Below, in pieces: positions 37,627 to 48,194 of a stretch of DNA of 64,000 nucleotides. The notes under the pieces are model-generated. The model did not search any database and was not told the origin of the DNA. It saw only the letters and a list, made by a program, of their open reading frames with translations. Numbering within the stretch: the first letter of the stretch is position 1; every line of letters begins with the position of its first letter. A program made the translations under genes and the position numbers. This DNA comes from Pseudomonadota bacterium. GTDB taxonomy: Bacteria > Pseudomonadota > Gammaproteobacteria > Steroidobacterales > Steroidobacteraceae. The DNA lies in assembly GCA_021816775.1 (NCBI GenBank), contig JAKAXA010000003.1, positions 1 through 64,000 on the forward strand. Reading direction: 5' to 3'.

Positions 37627-39102
37627 ATGCCGCTGAGGCGTTGGTGGGAGCACGCGCAGAAGATTGCGGGCGCATCGAGCGTGCGTGGCCTCGGTGTCGG
37701 CGCCGAGCATTGGCTGCAGGTGGCAAGCGATGTCGCCGACGCGGGCGGCTTGCTGCACACGCTGTGGGTCAACCGCGAGCCGGCGGGCGATGCGGCGGTC
37801 TACGGCGCGTATCTCACCGAGTTGGGCGTGCTGGTCGCGGAGCTCGCGCTGCCCGCCGGCGGCGAATCCGTCTACTACCCGGGCCTCGAGGACATCTTTC
37901 CTGCCGCATCCCGCCTGCAGCGAGCCGCCTTCGACCTCTCCGGCGTGCGCTCCGGCGACCCGGACCGCAGGCCCTGGCTGAATCACGACAGGCCGTATGA
38001 ATTTGTGCGGGTGGACGGGGAGGGTGTCCATGAGATCGGCGTCGGACCGGTCCATGCCGGCACCATCGAGCCGGGGCACTTCCGCTTCTCGGTGGTCGGG
38101 GAGAAGGTGCTGAGGCTGGAGGAGCACCTGGGATACGTCCACAAGGGCCTCGAGCAGCGCTTCACACAGCTGCCCATTCTGCAGGGTCATCGGCTGGCCT
38201 CGCGTGTGTCGGGTGACTCCGCGATCGCGTTTTCATGGGCCTACTGCCAGGCTCTGGAGGGCATGAGCGGCCGTGCACTGCCGCCGCGGGCAGCCTGGCT
38301 TCGCGCGGTGTGCCTCGAGCTCGAGCGACTCGCCAATCATCTCGGCGACCTTGGCGCGCTCGGGAACGATGCAGGGTTTGCGTTCGGACTCGCGCAGTTC
38401 TCCCGCCTCAAGGAGGATCTGCTGCGGGCGGTGTCGGCCGCGTTCGGCCGGCGCTATCTGTTCGACATCGTCGTGCCGGGCGGGGTGGCAGTGGATGTGT
38501 CGAGTCAGGCGGCTCGTGCCTTGGCCGAGGTGGTGCGCACCGTCTGCGCCGAGATCATCGAATTGCGCGGCATCTACGACGAGCACGAGGGCGTGCGCGA
38601 TCGCTTCACGGGCGCCGGGTGCCTGGCGCCAGAGCTTGCCGCGCGGCTCGGCGTGCTCGGGCTCGCGGGGCGCGCCAGCGGGCAGGCGCGGGATGCGCGC
38701 GTCGACCTGCCGTGCGCGCCGTACACGGAGCTGGCGGTTGCGAAGATCGTGCAACAGGGCGGGGACGTCGCGGCACGGGTGGCGGTTCGTTTCGAGGAGG
38801 CACAGGAGTCCGGCAGGCTGTTGAGGCGGCTGCTGGCGGCACTGCCCGAGGGCGAGCATGCGGTAACGGTCGATGCGCCGGCCGCCGATGCCTTCGGCGT
38901 CGGTCTGATCGAGGGGTGGCGCGGGCCGGTGCTTGTGGCGCTGCAGGCGGGGCCGGCGGGCTCGATCCGTCGCTGTCACCCGCACGATCCCTCATGGCAG
39001 AACTGGCCGGCGCTCGAGTACGCCATCCTGGGCAACATCGTGCCCGACTTTCCGCTGATCAACAAATCGTTCAACCTCTCCTATAGCGGCGTAGATCTGT
39101 AG
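37627..39102 (+). CDS. hyfG: Hydrogenase-4 large-subunit homologue lacking the Ni ligands
   Basis: Homologue of HyfG/HycE, fusing an N-terminal NuoC-like domain (about 1-120) to a NuoD/NiFe-large-subunit domain (491 aa). The four cysteines that bind Ni-Fe in hydrogenases are all replaced: the first motif (RxCGxC) is RVSGDS at 193-198, and the C-terminal DPCxxC is NLSYSG at 483-488. It therefore cannot be a hydrogenase and belongs with the Ehr (energy-converting hydrogenase-related) proteins. GAGGAG lies 6 bases before ATG 37627. No Hyp maturation genes or endopeptidase are nearby, in keeping with loss of the metal site. Confidence 0.92.
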   Translation: MPLRRWWEHAQKIAGASSVRGLGVGAEHWLQVASDVADAGGLLHTLWVNREPAGDAAVYGAYLTELGVLVAELALPAGGESVYYPGLEDIFPAASRLQRAAFDLSGVRSGDPDRRPWLNHDRPYEFVRVDGEGVHEIGVGPVHAGTIEPGHFRFSVVGEKVLRLEEHLGYVHKGLEQRFTQLPILQGHRLASRVSGDSAIAFSWAYCQALEGMSGRALPPRAAWLRAVCLELERLANHLGDLGALGNDAGFAFGLAQFSRLKEDLLRAVSAAFGRRYLFDIVVPGGVAVDVSSQAARALAEVVRTVCAEIIELRGIYDEHEGVRDRFTGAGCLAPELAARLGVLGLAGRASGQARDARVDLPCAPYTELAVAKIVQQGGDVAARVAVRFEEAQESGRLLRRLLAALPEGEHAVTVDAPAADAFGVGLIEGWRGPVLVALQAGPAGSIRRCHPHDPSWQNWPALEYAILGNIVPDFPLINKSFNLSYSGVDL

Positions 39103-39105
39103 ATC

Positions 39106-39615
39106 ATGCTCAAGACGCTGCGCAAGATCGCCTCCATCGGCCTCGTCTCGGAGCTGCCGCCAGGGCCCGACGAGCTGCTGCGGGTGCGCCGCGCGCTTGA
39201 CGATCGAATTGCCGCGGTGCTCGGCAGGGCATTGTGCATCCGTCACGTGGATGCGGGGTCCTGCAACGGCTGCGAGCTCGAGATCCAGTCGCTCAGCAAC
39301 CCGTATTACAACCTGGAGGGCTGCAACATTCGCTTCGTGGCAAGCCCCCGCCATGCGGACCTGTTGCTGGTCACCGGGCCGGTGGTGAAGAACATGGAAG
39401 CGGCGCTGAAGCGCGTCTACGCGGCCGCACCGGATCCCAAACTGGTCGTGGCGCTCGGGGATTGCGGCTGCACGGGCGGCATTCTCGGCGAATGCCCCGC
39501 CTCGCTCGGCCGGGTCTCGAACGTCATCCCGGTGGACGTGGCGGTGCCGGGCTGCCCGCCGAGCCCGGTGCGCATCCTGCAGGGGATCGTGACGGCCATA
39601 TCGCCACCGGTGTGA
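39106..39615 (+). CDS. hyfI: Hydrogenase-4 subunit I-like (NuoB-type) iron-sulfur protein
   Basis: Small subunit homologous to HyfI/HycG and complex I NuoB (169 aa). The proximal [4Fe-4S] (N2-like) cluster ligands are intact: C53 and C56 in GSCNGCELE, C120 in GDCGCTGG and C150 in PGCPPSP. It follows hyfG by 3 bp and is the last gene of the operon. So the electron-transfer site is kept while the neighbouring Ni-Fe site is lost. No HyfA/HycB-type ferredoxin subunit is present in the window. Confidence 0.93.
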   Translation: MLKTLRKIASIGLVSELPPGPDELLRVRRALDDRIAAVLGRALCIRHVDAGSCNGCELEIQSLSNPYYNLEGCNIRFVASPRHADLLLVTGPVVKNMEAALKRVYAAAPDPKLVVALGDCGCTGGILGECPASLGRVSNVIPVDVAVPGCPPSPVRILQGIVTAISPPV

Positions 39616-41949: not shown

Positions 41950-42474
41950 AGGTCAGGAAGTTGCGCGACGTCACCGTGGCCGGGTAGCGATACTGCTCCC
42001 ATCGCAGCTCCTGCGCCCGCCTTGAAGTATGCGGGGTGGGTGACAATGATCGCGCGCTGCAGCGTCCCCGCTCAGTCTGATCAGGCCCATGTTCGCCGCG
42101 AGCAAGCGAATCAGGTCACGAGCAGTCGATTTGATGTCGTGCGCTTCGGCGGCCAGCACGCCGGGCGCCAGGCGGCTGCTCAGCGCCGCATGGGACGCGA
42201 GCGTCACCGTGAACGTCTTGCTCACGGATCCGATTGCAAACAGCGTATCCGGCGTCACCGGGCGACGGGATTGCAATGATGCCTCGCCGTAATTGAAGAC
42301 CCGCGTGCGCCCGTCAACGATGACGCCGACCGCCAGGCCCGCAATGCCCTTCTGTCGGCATCAGCGGTCGCATTACTGCGTCAGCCACATGCTTGAGCTG
42401 CCCGTGCGAACGATGGAGACAGGGGCTGCCGCCAGAATCATGAGCACCAACAGCTGAATGCTCTTTGAATTCAC
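41950..42474 (-). pseudogene. Degraded class C beta-lactamase (AmpC-like) gene
   Basis: Minus-strand remnant that begins at GTG 42474 behind GAGG. A signal-peptide-like start (IQLLVLMILAAAPVS) is followed, after a frameshift near 42407, by [14 protein letters not shown]. After another shift comes [20 protein letters not shown], then [14 protein letters not shown] and the active-site SxxK motif GSVSKTFT. The reading then jumps to [18 protein letters not shown], implying loss of roughly 190 codons including the YxN motif, and a further fragment LRWEQYRYP lies in a different frame. At least three frameshifts and a large deletion mean no functional enzyme. Confidence 0.82.
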
Positions 42475-43133
42475 CGGCTGCCTCACGGTGTCGTCATCAC
42501 AACAGCATGCCGTCGCGAAGACGCCGCGGTGGCCCATTGTGTGGCGCACGGGCCGTCTTGAGGTCTGATCGCCGCACCGCGCGATGGTGCCTTGTCGTCG
42601 CCACGCTCGGGTGGAGTCGAAAAGAACCCTGACCGGCGGATTCGTTACCTCTCGATCCCTGTGGCGCGACGTCTTCTCCTCAAAGCTGGAGTCGGCGGTC
42701 GGTGCTCATTCATACGGACGCATGAATCCGGACCAACATGCCGCGAGGTCTGTGCGCGACGAGCGGACTGTTCGGGAAAAACCGCCGGCCGGAATTGACC
42801 TGTTCATCCCTCTTGGTCTTGCGTTGCGGCGGGCCGGCGGGCATGTGTATGTCATGTAGGGACGGTCATTACACTGCTCCTCGGCGGGTCGCCGTGCCGG
42901 TGAGAACGGGTGTCAATGCGAGCGCGTTGCGTGCGGAGTTTCGCGAGCTTGCGGTGCCCGGCCAATTTGAGCGGAAGCTCCCCTTGGGCCAAGGCGGACC
43001 GAAGCGCAGGCCGGCGAGCTCATCATGATGGTTCACGCACACGCCGGCCGCACGGCGCGCGCCGGTCTCGTTCCGTGGCTGGCTCCGGCCGTGTCGCGCC
43101 CGGTGGCATGCTTGGGGCGCCGCGTAGTTTCAC
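42475..43133. other. About 660 bp without a recognisable gene
   Basis: Neither strand gives a protein I recognise. The short open frames lack ribosome-binding sites and look like chance. An intact ampC is often flanked by a divergent LysR-type ampR; I looked for one here and did not find even a remnant. Composition is less GC-rich than the surroundings in places. Confidence 0.5.
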
Positions 43134-43162
43134 TTTACAGCGTGCAGTGCTTCCGGTAACTT
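43134..43162 (+). promoter_or_regulatory. Predicted promoter of the asd leader
   Basis: TTTACA (43134-43139), a 17-base spacer and TAACTT (43157-43162) form a sigma-70-like promoter with a good -35 and a moderate -10. Transcription would start near 43169-43171, immediately before the leader-peptide ATG at 43172. Confidence 0.5.
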
Positions 43163-43171
43163 CCCCTCACC

Positions 43172-43243
43172 ATGTTCACGCAAAAGCGCATGATGACCCT
43201 CAAGAAACCCGGCAGCGGGGCTCTGGGGGAACGCGCGCGCTGA
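43172..43243 (+). CDS. asd leader peptide (Thr/Lys/Met-rich attenuator peptide)
   Basis: A 23-codon frame directly upstream of asd. Seven of residues 3-12 are threonine, lysine or methionine (TQKRMMTLKK), exactly the end products of the pathway branching from aspartate semialdehyde. The predicted promoter places the transcript start 1-3 bases before the ATG, so it may be translated leaderless; no ribosome-binding site is seen. The stop (43241-43243) lies just beyond the antiterminator arm, so a ribosome that reaches it would block that arm and let the terminator form. The reading as a regulatory peptide is inference from sequence and RNA folding by eye. Confidence 0.65.
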   Translation: MFTQKRMMTLKKPGSGALGERAR

Positions 43244-43278
43244 AGGCGCCGGAACGTCCCGAGACACCAGAGGCCCCG
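43208..43278 (+). promoter_or_regulatory. Competing hairpins of the asd attenuator (1:2 and antiterminator 2:3)
   Basis: Arm 1 CCCG (43208-43211) can pair with CGGG (43216-43219) around a GCAG loop. Arm 2 GGGGCTCTGG (43217-43226) can instead pair with CCAGAGGCCCC (43267-43277), ten base pairs with one bulged G, plus a flanking C-G pair. Arm 3 is the 5' side of the terminator, so the two structures are mutually exclusive. Ribosome stalling on the Met/Thr/Lys codons (43190-43207) would break 1:2 and favour the antiterminator. Confidence 0.65.
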
Positions 43279-43308
43279 CCGGAGCAACCGTCGGGGCCTT
43301 CGTTTTTT
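43271..43308 (+). terminator. Intrinsic terminator of the asd attenuator
   Basis: AGGCCCCG (43271-43278) pairs perfectly with CGGGGCCT (43292-43299). Inside, after one mismatch, CGG pairs with CCG around AGCAA. A run of six T follows at 43303-43308. The asd ATG is only 27 bases further, so this terminator can only serve to regulate asd. Confidence 0.85.
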
Positions 43309-43334
43309 CCCAGCCTGAGAATCGGAGCCTGTCC

Positions 43335-44360
43335 ATGTCATCTGGTCGTTCGGCCGGCGCCCTGCCGGTAGTCGCAATCGTCGGTGCCACCGGGGCCGTC
43401 GGTGTCGAGTTGATCCGCTGTCTCGAGCGGCGCAATTTCCCGCTGGCGCAGCTTCGGCTGCTGGCCTCGGCGCGCTCGGCGGGCAAGACCCTGCCGTTTC
43501 GCGGCGCGGCGCTGCCCGTGGAGGAGCTCACCGAGGAGAGCTTCCGCGGCGTCGACATCGCGCTGTTTTCCGCCGGCAGCGGCATCTCCAAGCGTTTCGC
43601 GCCGCTTGCCGTCGCGCAGGGCGCGGTGGTCGTCGACAATTCATCGGCTTTTCGGCGCGATCCGGCCGTGCCGCTCGTCGTGCCGGAGATCAATCCGCAG
43701 GCGCTGAAGACACACCGCGGCCTCATCGCGAACCCCAACTGCTCGACGATCATCGCGATCACGCCGCTGTGGGCGGTGCACCGCCGCAATCCCATCAGGC
43801 GGATGATCCTCGCGACCTATCAGGCGGCCTCCGGGGCGGGCGCGGCCGCCATGGAGGAGTTGCGCGAGTCGACCCGCGCCTACCTCGAGGACCAGCCGTA
43901 CGAGCCACGGGTGCTGCCGCACCCCTACGCCTTCAATCTGTTCAGCCACAACTCACCGATCGATGCGCAGACCGGCTACAACGAGGAGGAATTGAAGGCC
44001 CTGCACGAGACCCGCAAGATCTACGGCGATGCATCGATTCGCGTGACTGCGACTTGCGTGCGAGTGCCGGTGCTGCGGGCACACGGCATTGCCGCCACTT
44101 TCGAGTGCGAGCGCGAGATCACACCGGGCGAGGTGCGCGCTCTCATGGCGGATGCCCCTGGCGTGAAGCTCATCGACGATCCCGAGCGCAATTACTTCCC
44201 CATGCCGAAGGATGCCTCCGGCAACGACCCGATTCTCGTCGGGCGCATCCGCGCGGACATCTCGGACCCGAGCGGGCGGTCGATCGCGTTGTTCATCGTA
44301 GGCGATCAGCTGCTGAAGGGCGCGGCGCTCAACGCCGTGCAGATCGCGGAACTGCTCTGA
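43335..44360 (+). CDS. asd: Aspartate-semialdehyde dehydrogenase
   Basis: NADPH-dependent reduction of aspartyl phosphate to aspartate semialdehyde, the common step to lysine/diaminopimelate, threonine and methionine. At 341 aa it shows the nucleotide-binding GATGAVGVEL, catalytic cysteine in ANPNCSTI, and the LPHPYAFNLFSHN and RVPVLRAH segments of the substrate domain. GGAG at 43324-43327 is 7 bases before ATG 43335. Upstream lies the proposed attenuator with its Thr/Lys/Met leader peptide. Downstream the next gene is on the other strand, so asd is monocistronic. Confidence 0.96.
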   Translation: MSSGRSAGALPVVAIVGATGAVGVELIRCLERRNFPLAQLRLLASARSAGKTLPFRGAALPVEELTEESFRGVDIALFSAGSGISKRFAPLAVAQGAVVVDNSSAFRRDPAVPLVVPEINPQALKTHRGLIANPNCSTIIAITPLWAVHRRNPIRRMILATYQAASGAGAAAMEELRESTRAYLEDQPYEPRVLPHPYAFNLFSHNSPIDAQTGYNEEELKALHETRKIYGDASIRVTATCVRVPVLRAHGIAATFECEREITPGEVRALMADAPGVKLIDDPERNYFPMPKDASGNDPILVGRIRADISDPSGRSIALFIVGDQLLKGAALNAVQIAELL

Positions 44361-44419: not shown

Positions 44420-45688
44420 TCACAACAGGTCGCGGAGTCTGTAGTACAGCATCGCCAGGGCAAGCAGCGGACGGCGGGCGAGCGCGCCGCCGGGAAAGCC
44501 GCGGTGTCGGATGCGCGCGAACACGTCGAAGCGCTCGGCCTGCCCGGCGAGCGCTTCGGCGACGAGTTTGCCCGCGATGCCCGCGAGCGCGATGCCGTGT
44601 CCGGAGAAGCCCTGGAGAAAGTAAACGTCGGGTGCGAGGCGGCCGAAGTGCGGAGCGCGGTTGGCCGTCAGATCGAGCAGACCGCTCCAGGTGTACTCGA
44701 TGCGGGCCGTGGTGAGCTGTGGAAACACACGCAGCATGCGCGCACGGTTCGCGGAGCGCGCGGCGAAATGGCCGTTCCCCGCATAGCTGATTGCCCCACC
44801 GAACAGCAGACGGTGATCGGCGGTGCGGTGAAAGTAATCGAGCGCCCAGTTCATGTCGCTGACCGCGGCGTTGTTGGCGATCAGTGTGCGCGCGCGGTCC
44901 TCGCCGAGCGGCTCGGTCGCGATGAGGTGTGTGGCAACCGGGATGATCCGCTCGGCGAGGGGCGGCGCGAGCGCGCCGAGATAGGCGTTGCCGCAGAGCA
45001 CGATGTAGCGGGCGTGCACTTCGCCGTCTTGCGTGCGCACACAACCCGGAGAGATTGCGACGGCGCGCGAGCCCTCGAACACGCGGACCCCGGACCGTTC
45101 GGCGGCGGCAGCGAGTCCACGCGTGTACGCGAGCGGCTGCAGGTGCCCGGCGTTTGCATCGAACATCGCGCTGACGTATCGCGCACTGCAAATCGAGGCC
45201 CGTACCTCCTCGAGCGGCATATAGCGGACCGAGTGGTAATCGTAGCGCGTGTGCAGCTCATCAACCTCGGCGCGAAGCTCGCGGTCATGGCGAGGCTTCA
45301 GGGCGGTGAGCATGTAGCCGTCCACCCAGTCGCACGCGATGTCGTGGCGCGCAATCAGCGAGCGCGTGAGCCGCACCGCCTCGGTGGCGACCTCCCACAC
45401 GGTGCGCGCACCGATCGCGCCGAGCAGCCGCTCGAGCGAGCGCTGCCCGCAGGCGACGCCGTGGATGACCTCACCGCCGCTGCGTCCCGATGCGCCCCAG
45501 CCGATGCGGTGCTGCTCGATCAGAACCGTCGAATAGCCCCGTTCGGCGAGGTGCAGAGCGGCCGAACAGCCGGCGATTCCCCCGCCGACCACGCAGACGT
45601 CGGCGCTGACGGCGCCGGTGAGCGACGCCCGCCCGGTATCCGGTCCGGCCGCGGCGGCGTAGTAGGAAGGGGTGTACTCGTTGGCCAT
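44420..45688 (-). CDS. puuB: Gamma-glutamylputrescine oxidase-like FAD oxidoreductase
   Basis: DAO-family flavoenzyme (422 aa) matching PuuB, which oxidises gamma-glutamylputrescine to the aminoaldehyde in putrescine catabolism. It has the FAD-binding VCVVGGGIAGCSAALHLAER, the GRSGGEVIHG loop typical of PuuB/OrdL-type enzymes, and the C-terminal FLQGFSGHGIALAGIAGKL. The start is ATG 45688, giving the usual length. It is divergent from puuD-puuA across a 398-bp region, a natural partner of those genes. Other OrdL-like amine oxidases cannot be excluded. Confidence 0.87.
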   Translation of the reverse strand: MANEYTPSYYAAAAGPDTGRASLTGAVSADVCVVGGGIAGCSAALHLAERGYSTVLIEQHRIGWGASGRSGGEVIHGVACGQRSLERLLGAIGARTVWEVATEAVRLTRSLIARHDIACDWVDGYMLTALKPRHDRELRAEVDELHTRYDYHSVRYMPLEEVRASICSARYVSAMFDANAGHLQPLAYTRGLAAAAERSGVRVFEGSRAVAISPGCVRTQDGEVHARYIVLCGNAYLGALAPPLAERIIPVATHLIATEPLGEDRARTLIANNAAVSDMNWALDYFHRTADHRLLFGGAISYAGNGHFAARSANRARMLRVFPQLTTARIEYTWSGLLDLTANRAPHFGRLAPDVYFLQGFSGHGIALAGIAGKLVAEALAGQAERFDVFARIRHRGFPGGALARRPLLALAMLYYRLRDLL

Positions 45689-46086
45689 GGCTGGGCGGTC
45701 TCTCACGGATGATAGCGGCCCAGAGGGCTCGAGCGGCTGCGCTTGCCGCCGCGCGAGCCTCAGACGCCATGCCCCGCAGCTGAAATCAGCTGCCCGTCGG
45801 CTGGTGAGCGCCGTGCAGCGCTGGACCGCCGAGCCAAGCTGGATATCGATCCAGCCCATCGAATCGCCGATCGCCACCGCGACGCAATTCGGGGCGCACC
45901 GGAGGTCCTGCGGCCGCTCGGCGGGGGCAATGAGCGGGAAAAGCCGCAATGCATCACAAGTTTGCCGCGAGGCAGCACGCTTCTGACGGCAGCGCCACCT
46001 CGAGAGGCCCGTGTGAGCGCGGTCAGGATTGCGTAGTCCCGCATCATCGGGGATGGATGAATCTTTATATAATCAGCCACACTCCC
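45689..46086. other. 398-bp divergent region between puuB and puuD
   Basis: No gene supported. A perfect TATAAT lies at 46068-46073, 13 bases before the puuD ATG, with no strong -35, so the puuD transcript would have only about a 7-base leader and no ribosome-binding site. The part near 45800-45930 holds several overlapping short repeats of GATCGC/GCGATC type without clear order. Confidence 0.5.
46068..46073 (+). promoter_or_regulatory. -10 element for puuD
   Basis: TATAAT in an otherwise AT-poor region, 13 bases before the puuD ATG. The -35 is not obvious, so an activator may be required. Confidence 0.45.
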
Positions 46087-46842
46087 ATGGCATCGCCGCG
46101 CTCCCTCATTGGACTTCCCGCTGACCGCCGCATGATAGGCGCGCACGCCTTTCACGCGGCCGCGGAGAAGTACGCGCGCGCGCTGCTCGATGCCGCCGAT
46201 GCGCTGCCGCTGGTGATTCCCGCGCTCGCCGAGGAATTGCGCTTCGAGGAGCTGCTCGAGCGGCTCGATGGGCTGCTGTTCACCGGCAGCCCCTCCAACG
46301 TCGAGCCGCATCATTACGCCGGCCCGCCGAGCGCCCCGGGCACTCTGCACGATCCGGCCCGCGACGCGACCACGCTGCCGCTGATCCGCAAAGCGGTCGA
46401 GCGCGGCGTGCCCGTGCTCGGCATCTGCCGCGGTTTCCAGGAGGTCAATGTCGCCTTCGGCGGCACTCTCCATCAGCGCGTGCACGAAGTGCCGGGTTAT
46501 CTGGATCATCGCGATGATGAGGGCCAGCCGCTCGAGGTGCAGTACGGGCCGGCGCACGAGGTCATGCTCGAGCCCGACGGAGTGTTACGCACGCTCGCCG
46601 GCAGCGAGCGCGTGTGCGTCAATTCCCTGCACTGGCAGGGCATCGATCGGCTGGGCCGCGGGCTCATCGTCGAGGCGCGCGCGCCCGATGGGCTGATCGA
46701 GGCGTTTCGGGTTGCGCGGGCGCCGAGCTTTGCGCTGGCCGTGCAGTGGCATCCTGAATGGAAGGTCATGGACAACCCTTTCTCGCGCGCGCTGTTCAGC
46801 GCGTTCGGCGCAGCCTGCCGCGAGCGGGCGGCTCATCGGTGA
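46087..46842 (+). CDS. puuD: Gamma-glutamyl-GABA hydrolase-like class I glutamine amidotransferase
   Basis: Peptidase C26 / PuuD family (251 aa), hydrolysing gamma-glutamyl-GABA to glutamate and GABA in the putrescine pathway. The nucleophile cysteine is in LGICRGFQEVNVAFGG and the His-Glu pair in VQWHPEW; the N-terminal IGLPADRR and FTGSPSNVEPHHY stretches fit the family. The start is ATG 46087, the first ATG after the TATAAT; longer readings enter the intergenic region. puuA begins 11 bp after its stop. Confidence 0.9.
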   Translation: MASPRSLIGLPADRRMIGAHAFHAAAEKYARALLDAADALPLVIPALAEELRFEELLERLDGLLFTGSPSNVEPHHYAGPPSAPGTLHDPARDATTLPLIRKAVERGVPVLGICRGFQEVNVAFGGTLHQRVHEVPGYLDHRDDEGQPLEVQYGPAHEVMLEPDGVLRTLAGSERVCVNSLHWQGIDRLGRGLIVEARAPDGLIEAFRVARAPSFALAVQWHPEWKVMDNPFSRALFSAFGAACRERAAHR

Positions 46843-46853
46843 AAGGCACGACC

Positions 46854-48194
46854 ATGGTCAGCGAAGTCAGTCAATTCTTCCGTGATCACGGCATCTCCGA
46901 GGTCGAGGCCATCATTCCCGACATGGCGGGCATCGCCCGCGGCAAGATCATGCCGGCGGAGAAATTCGCCGAGGACGGTGGCATGCGTCTGCCCGAGAGC
47001 GTGTTTCTGCAGACGGTCACCGGCGACTACCCGCCCGAGACCGGGCAGGCGATGAGCCCGGCGGAGATCGACATCATTCTCAAGGCCGATCCGAAGACCG
47101 TGCGGCGCGTGCCCTGGGCGGCGGAGCCGACCGCGCAGGTGATCCACGACTGCTTCTACGCCGACGGCCGGCGCGTGACCATGGCGCCGCGGCACGTGCT
47201 GCGCAATATTCTCGAGCTGTATGCCCAGCGCGGCTGGGAGCCGGTGGTGGCCCCCGAGCTCGAATTCTATCTGGTCGAGCAGAACAAGGACGCCGATTAT
47301 CCGCTGCGCCCGCCGGTGGGCCGCTCGGGCCGCGCCGAGCCCGGCCGCCAGTCCTACAGCATCGCCGCGGTGAACGAGTTCGATCCGCTGTTCGATGACA
47401 TCTACCAGTTCTGCGAGGATCAGGAGATCGAGATCGATACCCTGATCCACGAGGACGGGCCGGCGCAGATGGAGATCAACCTGATCCACGGCCACCCGAT
47501 GGATCTCGCCGATCAGGCGTTTCTCTTCAAGCGCACCGCGCGCGAGGCGGCGCTGCGCCACAAGATGTACGCCACGTTCATGGCCAAGCCCCACGCCAAG
47601 GAGCCGGGCAGCGCCATGCACATTCACCAGAGCGTCATCGACACCCGGACGCGGCGCAACGTCTTCAGCAATCCCGACGGCAGCCCGTCGGCGCTGTTTT
47701 TCGCGCACATCGGTGGACTGCAGAAGTATCTGCCGGCCGCCATGGCGCTGTTCTGCGCCAATGTCAACTCTTACCGGCGGCTGACGCGCTACCTTTCGGC
47801 GCCCATCAACGTGCACTGGGGCTACGACAATCGCACCGCGGGCCTGCGCGTGCCGATGTCCGATCCCGAGGACCGGCGTGTCGAGAACCGCATCTGCGGG
47901 GCCGACGCCAACCCGTACATCGCGCTTGCCGCCTCGCTCGCCTGCGGCTACCTCGGCATGGTCGAGGGACTGCAGCCCTCAGAGCCGATCTCCGGCAGCG
48001 CGCACGAGCTGCCGTTCGGCCTGCCACGCTCGCTCGATGAGGCGCTGCGCGAGCTGCGCCGCAGCGCCGCGCTGGTCAAGATCCTCGGCGAGCCCTTCGT
48101 ATCGGCGTTCACCATCGTCAAGGAGGCCGAGTACGAGGTGTTTCTGCAGGTGATCAGCTCCTGGGAGCGCGAGCATCTGCTGCTGAACGTCTGA
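46854..48194 (+). CDS. puuA: Gamma-glutamylputrescine synthetase-like glutamine synthetase family enzyme
   Basis: Glutamine-synthetase-fold ligase (446 aa) of the PuuA group, joining glutamate to putrescine with ATP. Landmarks are FYLVEQNKDADYPLRPP, MEINLIHGHP, GSAMHIHQS (ATP/metal site) and GADANPYIALAA near the end. The start is ATG 46854 with AAAGG upstream; an in-frame GTG 15 bp earlier is possible. Immediate linkage to puuD and the opposite puuB supports polyamine use over nitrogen assimilation. PuuC, the aldehyde dehydrogenase step, is not in the window. Confidence 0.9.
   Translation: MVSEVSQFFRDHGISEVEAIIPDMAGIARGKIMPAEKFAEDGGMRLPESVFLQTVTGDYPPETGQAMSPAEIDIILKADPKTVRRVPWAAEPTAQVIHDCFYADGRRVTMAPRHVLRNILELYAQRGWEPVVAPELEFYLVEQNKDADYPLRPPVGRSGRAEPGRQSYSIAAVNEFDPLFDDIYQFCEDQEIEIDTLIHEDGPAQMEINLIHGHPMDLADQAFLFKRTAREAALRHKMYATFMAKPHAKEPGSAMHIHQSVIDTRTRRNVFSNPDGSPSALFFAHIGGLQKYLPAAMALFCANVNSYRRLTRYLSAPINVHWGYDNRTAGLRVPMSDPEDRRVENRICGADANPYIALAASLACGYLGMVEGLQPSEPISGSAHELPFGLPRSLDEALRELRRSAALVKILGEPFVSAFTIVKEAEYEVFLQVISSWEREHLLLNV

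Follow-up and report, generated by a model that had tools for sequence, protein, structure and literature searches.

A putative Thr/Lys leader-peptide attenuator upstream of asd in Steroidobacteraceae and related bacteria

The asd locus and its leader region

The stretch of 64,000 nucleotides analysed here, called the window in the following, is contig 41 of a draft genome of 3.94 Mb in 90 contigs. It carries asd, the gene for aspartate-semialdehyde dehydrogenase (Table 1). The enzyme makes aspartate semialdehyde, the last intermediate that the pathways to lysine/diaminopimelate, threonine and methionine share. The asd gene of E. coli is repressed by several end products and is not known to have a typical attenuator. 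The gene in the window is the sole asd detected in its genome at E <= 1e-40, and since the next frame on its 3' side with a family match (44420-45949) is encoded on the opposite strand, it probably forms a unit of one gene. For the thrA-like gene of the same genome, no complete ATG-started ORF of at least 10 codons was found within 420 nt on the upstream side (GTG and TTG starts were not counted).

Some neighbouring genes were noted in passing. The region 44420-48194 beside asd encodes an FAD oxidoreductase on the minus strand, together with proteins that resemble gamma-glutamyl-GABA hydrolase and glutamine synthetase/gamma-glutamylputrescine synthetase, respectively. Each scored below its NCBIfam cut-off, and the gene content suggests a polyamine-use cluster. 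At 41971-42276 on the minus strand lies a degenerate-looking fragment, with similarity to two distinct segments of class C beta-lactamase-type serine hydrolases. The adjacent NuoD-like and NuoB-like proteins encoded at 37627-39615 score under the complex I cut-offs and probably belong to a hydrogenase-like or related complex.

A preliminary description of the DNA upstream of asd had listed a promoter, a 23-codon ORF, an early hairpin, an antiterminator and a terminator, and every one of these elements was found where it had been placed (Table 1). The distance from the terminator to asd had been given as 27 bp; on recounting, the gap between the end of the T-run and the asd ATG is 26 nt. The pairing of arm 2 with arm 3 contains one bulged G. 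Two Met codons (43190 and 43193) lie inside the stretch of regulatory codons and are not conserved.

Table 1. Coordinates of asd and of the elements of its leader in the window
Feature	Position	Strand	Remarks
-35 hexamer TTTACA	43134-43139	+	read from the sequence; pattern kept in relatives
-10 hexamer TAACTT	43157-43162	+	17-nt spacer from -35; 9 nt to leader ATG
Leader ORF, 23 codons, MFTQKRMMTLKKPGSGALGERAR, then stop	43172-43243	+	also precedes asd in relatives
Regulatory codons Thr 43178, Lys 43184, Thr 43196, Lys 43202, Lys 43205	43178-43207	+	
1:2 (protector) hairpin, CCCG 43208-43211 with CGGG 43216-43219	43208-43219	+	
Antiterminator arm 2, GGGGCTCTGG	43217-43226	+	
Arm 3, CCAGAGGCCCC, common to antiterminator and terminator	43267-43277	+	
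Intrinsic terminator, stem 43271-43299 and T-run 43300-43308	43271-43308	+	
asd, aspartate-semialdehyde dehydrogenase, 341 aa	43335-44360	+	above cut-off for TIGR01296 (asd_B)/NF011456 (NCBIfam); Pfam Semialdhyde_dh, Semialdhyde_dhC

The DNA upstream of the leader ORF was searched for the pattern TTTACA-N16-18-TANNNT in the 35 leaders with enough upstream sequence. The pattern was present in 32 of them, with a spacer of 17 in 30 cases and of 18 in two, and it ends 6-10 nt before the start codon; it was not found in L080, L088 and L101. Because of this position of the -10 box, the transcript probably starts at the leader start codon or within a few nucleotides of it, which would make the ORF nearly leaderless.

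Taken from the window alone, the attenuator signal is weak and barely above chance. The duplex of arms 2 and 3 (2:3) reached p = 0.035 against dinucleotide shuffles and p = 0.050 against synonymous-codon shuffles, the Lys plus Thr content of the leader p = 0.060, and the fold of the whole region z = -1.95, with six of 200 shuffles at least as good. A generic promoter and terminator scan of the window listed neither the promoter nor the terminator of the putative attenuator. Across relatives, the arrangement is far beyond chance. The 2:3 duplex had p < 0.05 by dinucleotide shuffle in 32 of 37 distinct leaders (it beat synonymous-codon shuffles in only 16 of the 37), and the covariation score lay above all 500 column shuffles for the antiterminator and the terminator helix alike. 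The observation made in the preliminary description is confirmed.

Conservation among relatives

Fifty-five primary Asd loci were taken from genomes that are largely drafts, namely the window's own, 53 from the same genus or family and one from the same order (G098). Left out were G044 (partial match), G009 and G057 (which have only the 46-47% type), G059 (36%), and G008, G012 and G052, which gave no match at 1e-40. As G013 had no DNA upstream of its Asd locus, 54 loci were assessed. The rule applied to them is blind to amino acids: it uses a terminator-like stem and an ATG-started ORF of 15-35 codons that ends 12-45 nt before this stem. Such an ORF was found at 29 loci, and at 27 of these it encodes at least five Lys plus Thr residues. 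Six more loci (G006, G034, G035, G039, G049 and G055), at which the script picked another stem, were recognised by eye as having a leader. Together, these 27 and six loci give 33 of 54 at which the leader arrangement precedes asd. The other 21 loci are without leader; ten of them have a terminator-like stem, whereas the rule detected no terminator at eleven.

Several deviating loci deserve mention. At L114, L119, L124, L135, L113 and L055 the asd promoter is followed almost directly by the same GC-rich terminator, with no ORF between them; these are perhaps decayed attenuators or 5' stabilising hairpins. At L019 and L022 (G056 and G007) the terminator is retained and other sequence replaces the usual promoter and leader ORF. 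At L109 the leader terminator is separated from asd by a short piece that by eye resembles the start of asd, as a partial duplication would leave it.

For a closer comparison we used 38 leaders with 37 distinct coding sequences, drawn from these genomes and other contig records. Most of them had been picked with at least two Lys and at least one Thr, a selection bias that the amino-acid-blind locus count avoids, and they are interrelated, with an effective number of 3.64. The usual core of the peptide is K-[KT]-[RC]-[TK]-x-[TI]-x-K-[KT]-P. The distance from the stop codon to the terminator stem, as measured by script, is 25-30 nt in 31 of the 38 leaders and 14-24 nt in the remaining seven, often because the stem was run further upstream; the gap of L062 (G010) was 36 nt in the amino-acid-blind locus scan. 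Distant rows show little conservation of the spacer that links the stop codon to arm 3.

In the alignment (A1), 87.1% of the 456 cells of the 2:3 helix are paired, and sliding one partner by 1-3 columns lowered this value to 36-57%. Twelve cells are changed on both sides (shuffle mean 3.8), and the covariation of 0.141 compares with 0.103 for shuffles, none of which was as high in 500 trials, and with at most 0.091 for the slid versions. Counted as pairs changed on both sides, the helix has three, which is not above the shuffles (2.5), while slid versions have 2-5. Some distant rows of A1 are one column out of register, which counts against the 2:3 helix. The terminator helix is paired in 98.1% of cells and has four pairs changed on both sides, a number reached in none of 500 shuffles; when slid by 2-3 columns it has a covariation of 0.069-0.070, compared with 0.065 unslid, and about half of its cells are paired. 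For the 1:2 hairpin, three pairs were counted on A1, with 97.2% of cells paired and weak covariation. An RNAalifold consensus contained no 2:3 helix; it gave the terminator and a competing stem in which arm 2 pairs with the end of the ORF. Comparison of the relatives shows the ORF, its Lys and Thr codons, both predicted helices and their spacing, with some compensatory changes in the stems. The proposal of the preliminary description that the 2:3 helix and the terminator helix (3:4) are mutually exclusive is supported by the duplex tests, the covariation and the folding scan described below.

The same leaders bear on the question of which amino acids are read. In the preliminary description, a single attenuator senses Thr, Lys and Met alike. 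This fits the textbook route from aspartate semialdehyde to these three amino acids, as well as the pair of internal Met codons that the window's leader has in its stalling zone. Among the 855 residues of 37 leaders (start Met excluded), Lys accounts for 14.7%, Thr for 12.3%, Ile for 5.6% and Met for 2.1%; the corresponding values for six window genes are 2.1%, 3.3%, 4.8% and 1.4%. At least two Lys are found in all 37 leaders and at least two Thr in 33, but an internal Met occurs in only 15, ten of which have it at residues 3-5. The Met-Met site of the window is Thr-Thr in the closest relative (G048, with an Asd 97% identical) and Thr-Ile in 16 of the 37 leaders, and no other leader has Met-Met. 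Because of these residue fractions and the replacement of Met-Met in relatives, we conclude that the leader is likely to read Thr and Lys, and not Met. The Lys and Thr part of the earlier proposal therefore stands on conserved codons, whereas Met sensing was rejected on the comparison of the 37 peptides, and control by all three products is very improbable.

Even less probable, in our judgement, is a plain premature terminator or terminated small RNA in which the short ORF is incidental and asd is expressed by leaky read-through. It would suit those relatives, such as L114, L119 and L124, that keep promoter and terminator without a leader ORF, but against it stand the Lys/Thr ORF, the near-fixed spacing and the covariation of the 2:3 helix, an arrangement present at 33 of 54 loci, and the clustering of leader-bearing rows on the gene tree (see below).

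Folding model and proposed mechanism

The effect of ribosome position was modelled on the 37 leaders by moving a ribosome along them that keeps positions -17 to +12 around its A-site unpaired, and by scoring the pairing of arm 3 with the leader at the stage when arm 4 is still missing. The calculations treat truncated RNAs at equilibrium. The 2:3 helix formed in 37 of 37 leaders when the A-site lay 13-19 codons ahead of the stop; with 12 codons it formed in 29, and with 3-10 codons in 0-2. Lys or Thr, counted back from the stop, occupies 27-84% of leaders per position at positions 12-21 and 0-5% at positions 2-10. The regulatory codons therefore end where the modelled switch closes.

According to the preliminary description, a ribosome terminating at the stop codon would mask arm 2. 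This was not reproduced, as the 2:3 helix formed in 30 of 37 leaders with the A-site at the stop. However, before arm 3 emerges, arm 2 is already paired (P > 0.5) in all 37 leaders without a ribosome and in 28 of them when a ribosome occupies the stop codon, and thus can be kept from arm 3. In the model, termination with a ribosome at the stop would rest on arm 2 having paired earlier. Without a ribosome, the equilibrium calculation still forms 2:3 in 21 of 37 leaders before arm 4 is out. Once the full terminator is present, 3:4 wins on average in every modelled state (mean P 0.74-0.90), with single exceptions such as L020 when stalled early. Since 3:4 is favoured on average in all states, antitermination must be kinetic, that is, a matter of timing.

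We favour, at a probability of about 0.86, a ribosome-mediated transcription attenuator of the trp/thr type that would control asd in response to the charging of Thr-tRNA and Lys-tRNA. The leader-peptide attenuator put forward in the preliminary description is supported in this respect by the conserved ORF, its Lys/Thr codons, the stems and the exclusive helices. The locus has the parts of such a device: an ORF with clustered codons for products of the pathway, a terminator between ORF and gene, and an exclusive antiterminator that, by computation, is freed by stalling. RNA polymerase would start at or beside the leader ATG, and a ribosome would translate the peptide with its many Thr and Lys residues. 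With Thr-tRNA or Lys-tRNA in short supply, this ribosome would stall at a Thr or Lys codon upstream of arm 2; arm 2 would then pair with the emerging arm 3, the terminator would come too late, and asd would be transcribed. If both tRNAs are charged, the ribosome would pass over arms 1 and 2 or finish translation, and the 1:2 hairpin would take arm 2. Arm 3 would then be left to pair with arm 4, and transcription would stop at about 43308. The order of folding and the ribosome positions in this scheme are computed predictions; the start site, termination in vivo and the response to Thr and Lys are inferred.

Known systems and other Asd lineages

Thr_leader, the lysine riboswitch and the T-box are Rfam families, as is the asd RNA motif of lactic acid bacteria. 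At gathering score, no Rfam family matched the window or any of 12 related loci. This includes the asd RNA motif in both sets, and Thr_leader, the lysine riboswitch and T-box families in the window. At E <= 5, the interval 43100-43360 gave five chance-level matches, among them His_leader (16.3 bits, with a gathering score of 49); Thr_leader, the asd RNA motif, the lysine riboswitch and the T-box were not among them. A riboswitch or protein-binding antiterminator, in which a metabolite or protein binds the leader RNA and no ribosome reads it, would fit the terminator/antiterminator layout taken alone, but it is the least probable explanation in view of the missing Rfam family, the poorly conserved stop-to-arm-3 spacer among distant rows, and a conserved unit that consists of a reading frame with Lys/Thr codons just before arm 2.

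As a putative ribosome-sensing device, the asd leader can be compared with the thrL attenuator, which has Thr and Ile codons and precedes thrABC in E. coli and Vibrio natriegens (PMC12925634). Both have a leader peptide rich in product codons and a terminator hairpin, and both belong to the aspartate family. Here, however, the gene is asd and not thrABC, Lys codons occur besides Thr, and Ile is hardly enriched (5.6% vs 4.8%).

The closest parallel in a description is SEP5 of Sinorhizobium meliloti, a small ORF that carries six Thr and three Lys codons towards its end and whose translation was demonstrated by Ribo-seq and Western blot (PMC10117765). It is located in the 5' UTR of a gene which the paper names "aspartate dehydrogenase" and which may be asd; the authors suggest that SEP5 is possibly a leader peptide (PMC10117765). 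The passages on SEP5 mention neither a terminator nor an antiterminator and state that it is conserved only in Sinorhizobium (PMC10117765). The same source describes the S. meliloti trpL (rnTrpL) as an attenuator leader ORF on a leaderless transcript, with the AUG first (PMC10117765). This is like the asd leader, whose -10 box 6-10 nt before the start codon points to a similar start site, but trpL has Trp codons and serves trp genes (PMC10117765). For metX/metZ of betaproteobacteria, a candidate terminator-antiterminator element was predicted, which is likewise on a branch of the aspartate family; it concerns other genes and another structure, and the term "leader peptide" is absent from the text (PMC4239095).

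A literature search outside subscription papers yielded no description of a leader-peptide attenuator of asd among the matches listed. The texts of PMC2965389, PMC1262725 and PMC10219788 contain neither "asd" nor "semialdehyde", and that of PMC2659441 does not contain "asd". In a Caulobacter coding-map paper among the matches listed (PMC4117421), "asd" stands for anti-Shine-Dalgarno. The earlier statement that no peptide attenuator sensing all three products had been described for asd has to be qualified by the SEP5 suggestion (PMC10117765). While the class of mechanism is classical, asd as its target and the combination of Thr and Lys codons appear new, with a novelty that SEP5 reduces. A Thr/Lys leader before this branch-point gene would be a ribosome-sensing device of a known kind in a place where it has drawn hardly any attention. 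If the proposed mechanism is true, one leader peptide reads two end products of a branched pathway, and the asd leader offers a defined, conserved RNA for testing the logic of stalling at two kinds of codon.

The same type of Asd together with a Thr/Lys ORF was also found in further records, among them those titled Asticcacaulis (L074, L079, L104), Parvibaculum sedimenti (L099) and Steroidobacter agaridevorans (L101). For a second set, 23 such leaders were again chosen for Lys and Thr: 18 that their title or search class assigns to Alphaproteobacteria, L107 from a record with the title Marinimicrobia, and four leaders of the family to which genome G100 belongs. By rule, a terminator follows 21 of these 23 leaders, in 18 of the 21 at 21-28 nt from the stop codon to the stem. 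The 2:3 duplex had p < 0.05 in 12 of the 21 with a terminator, including eight of the 16 alphaproteobacterial ones; in this test, none of the three Asticcacaulis leaders had a 2:3 duplex at p < 0.05. At E <= 1e-110, this Asd type is uncommon: it was detected in nine of the 114 genomes sampled from the class of G099, in five of 60 of its order and in 17 of 80 of the family of G100.

On a tree of 86 Asd proteins, with leader labels assigned by hand from ORF lists, the leader label changes 10 times, compared with a mean of 28.1 for shuffled labels, and 48 of 49 leader rows fall within one branch of 77 rows (100/97). The bootstrap of this tree has not settled, its deep forks are uncertain and it contains some long end branches. 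Of 61 regions that precede the other alphaproteobacterial Asd type, 10 had an ORF that passed the Lys/Thr filter, and five of these (L211, L246, L249, L251, L268) were judged leader-like. In four of these five, a terminator by rule lies at most 40 nt after the ORF; the terminator of L268 is doubtful and that of L211 was caught only by the looser rule of the second-set test. A leuB test on this other asd type matched 0 of 61 rows, and no linkage claim rests on it. The chances are about even that the leader is an OR gate for Thr or Lys at a branch-point enzyme, built from a single nearly leaderless ORF, that it is conserved in a distinct Asd lineage which Steroidobacteraceae have in common with several alphaproteobacterial groups, and that it has arisen again or been kept before the other asd type (about five of 61 regions, perhaps with SEP5).

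The possibility of a wider regulon was rejected after searches with a model of the leader (R1), which gave one site in the window's genome and mostly Asd-bearing loci elsewhere: 22 of the 27 matched loci (L180-L206) include Asd. L202 and L204-L206 have no asd and match less strongly. L181 is also without Asd, yet among the strongest matches, and this locus ends about 40 nt past the match. Under stricter filters at 1e-6, only G000, G060 and G443 matched among 276 genomes of the class, and the match in G443 lies beside long ORFs that by eye are not asd-like.
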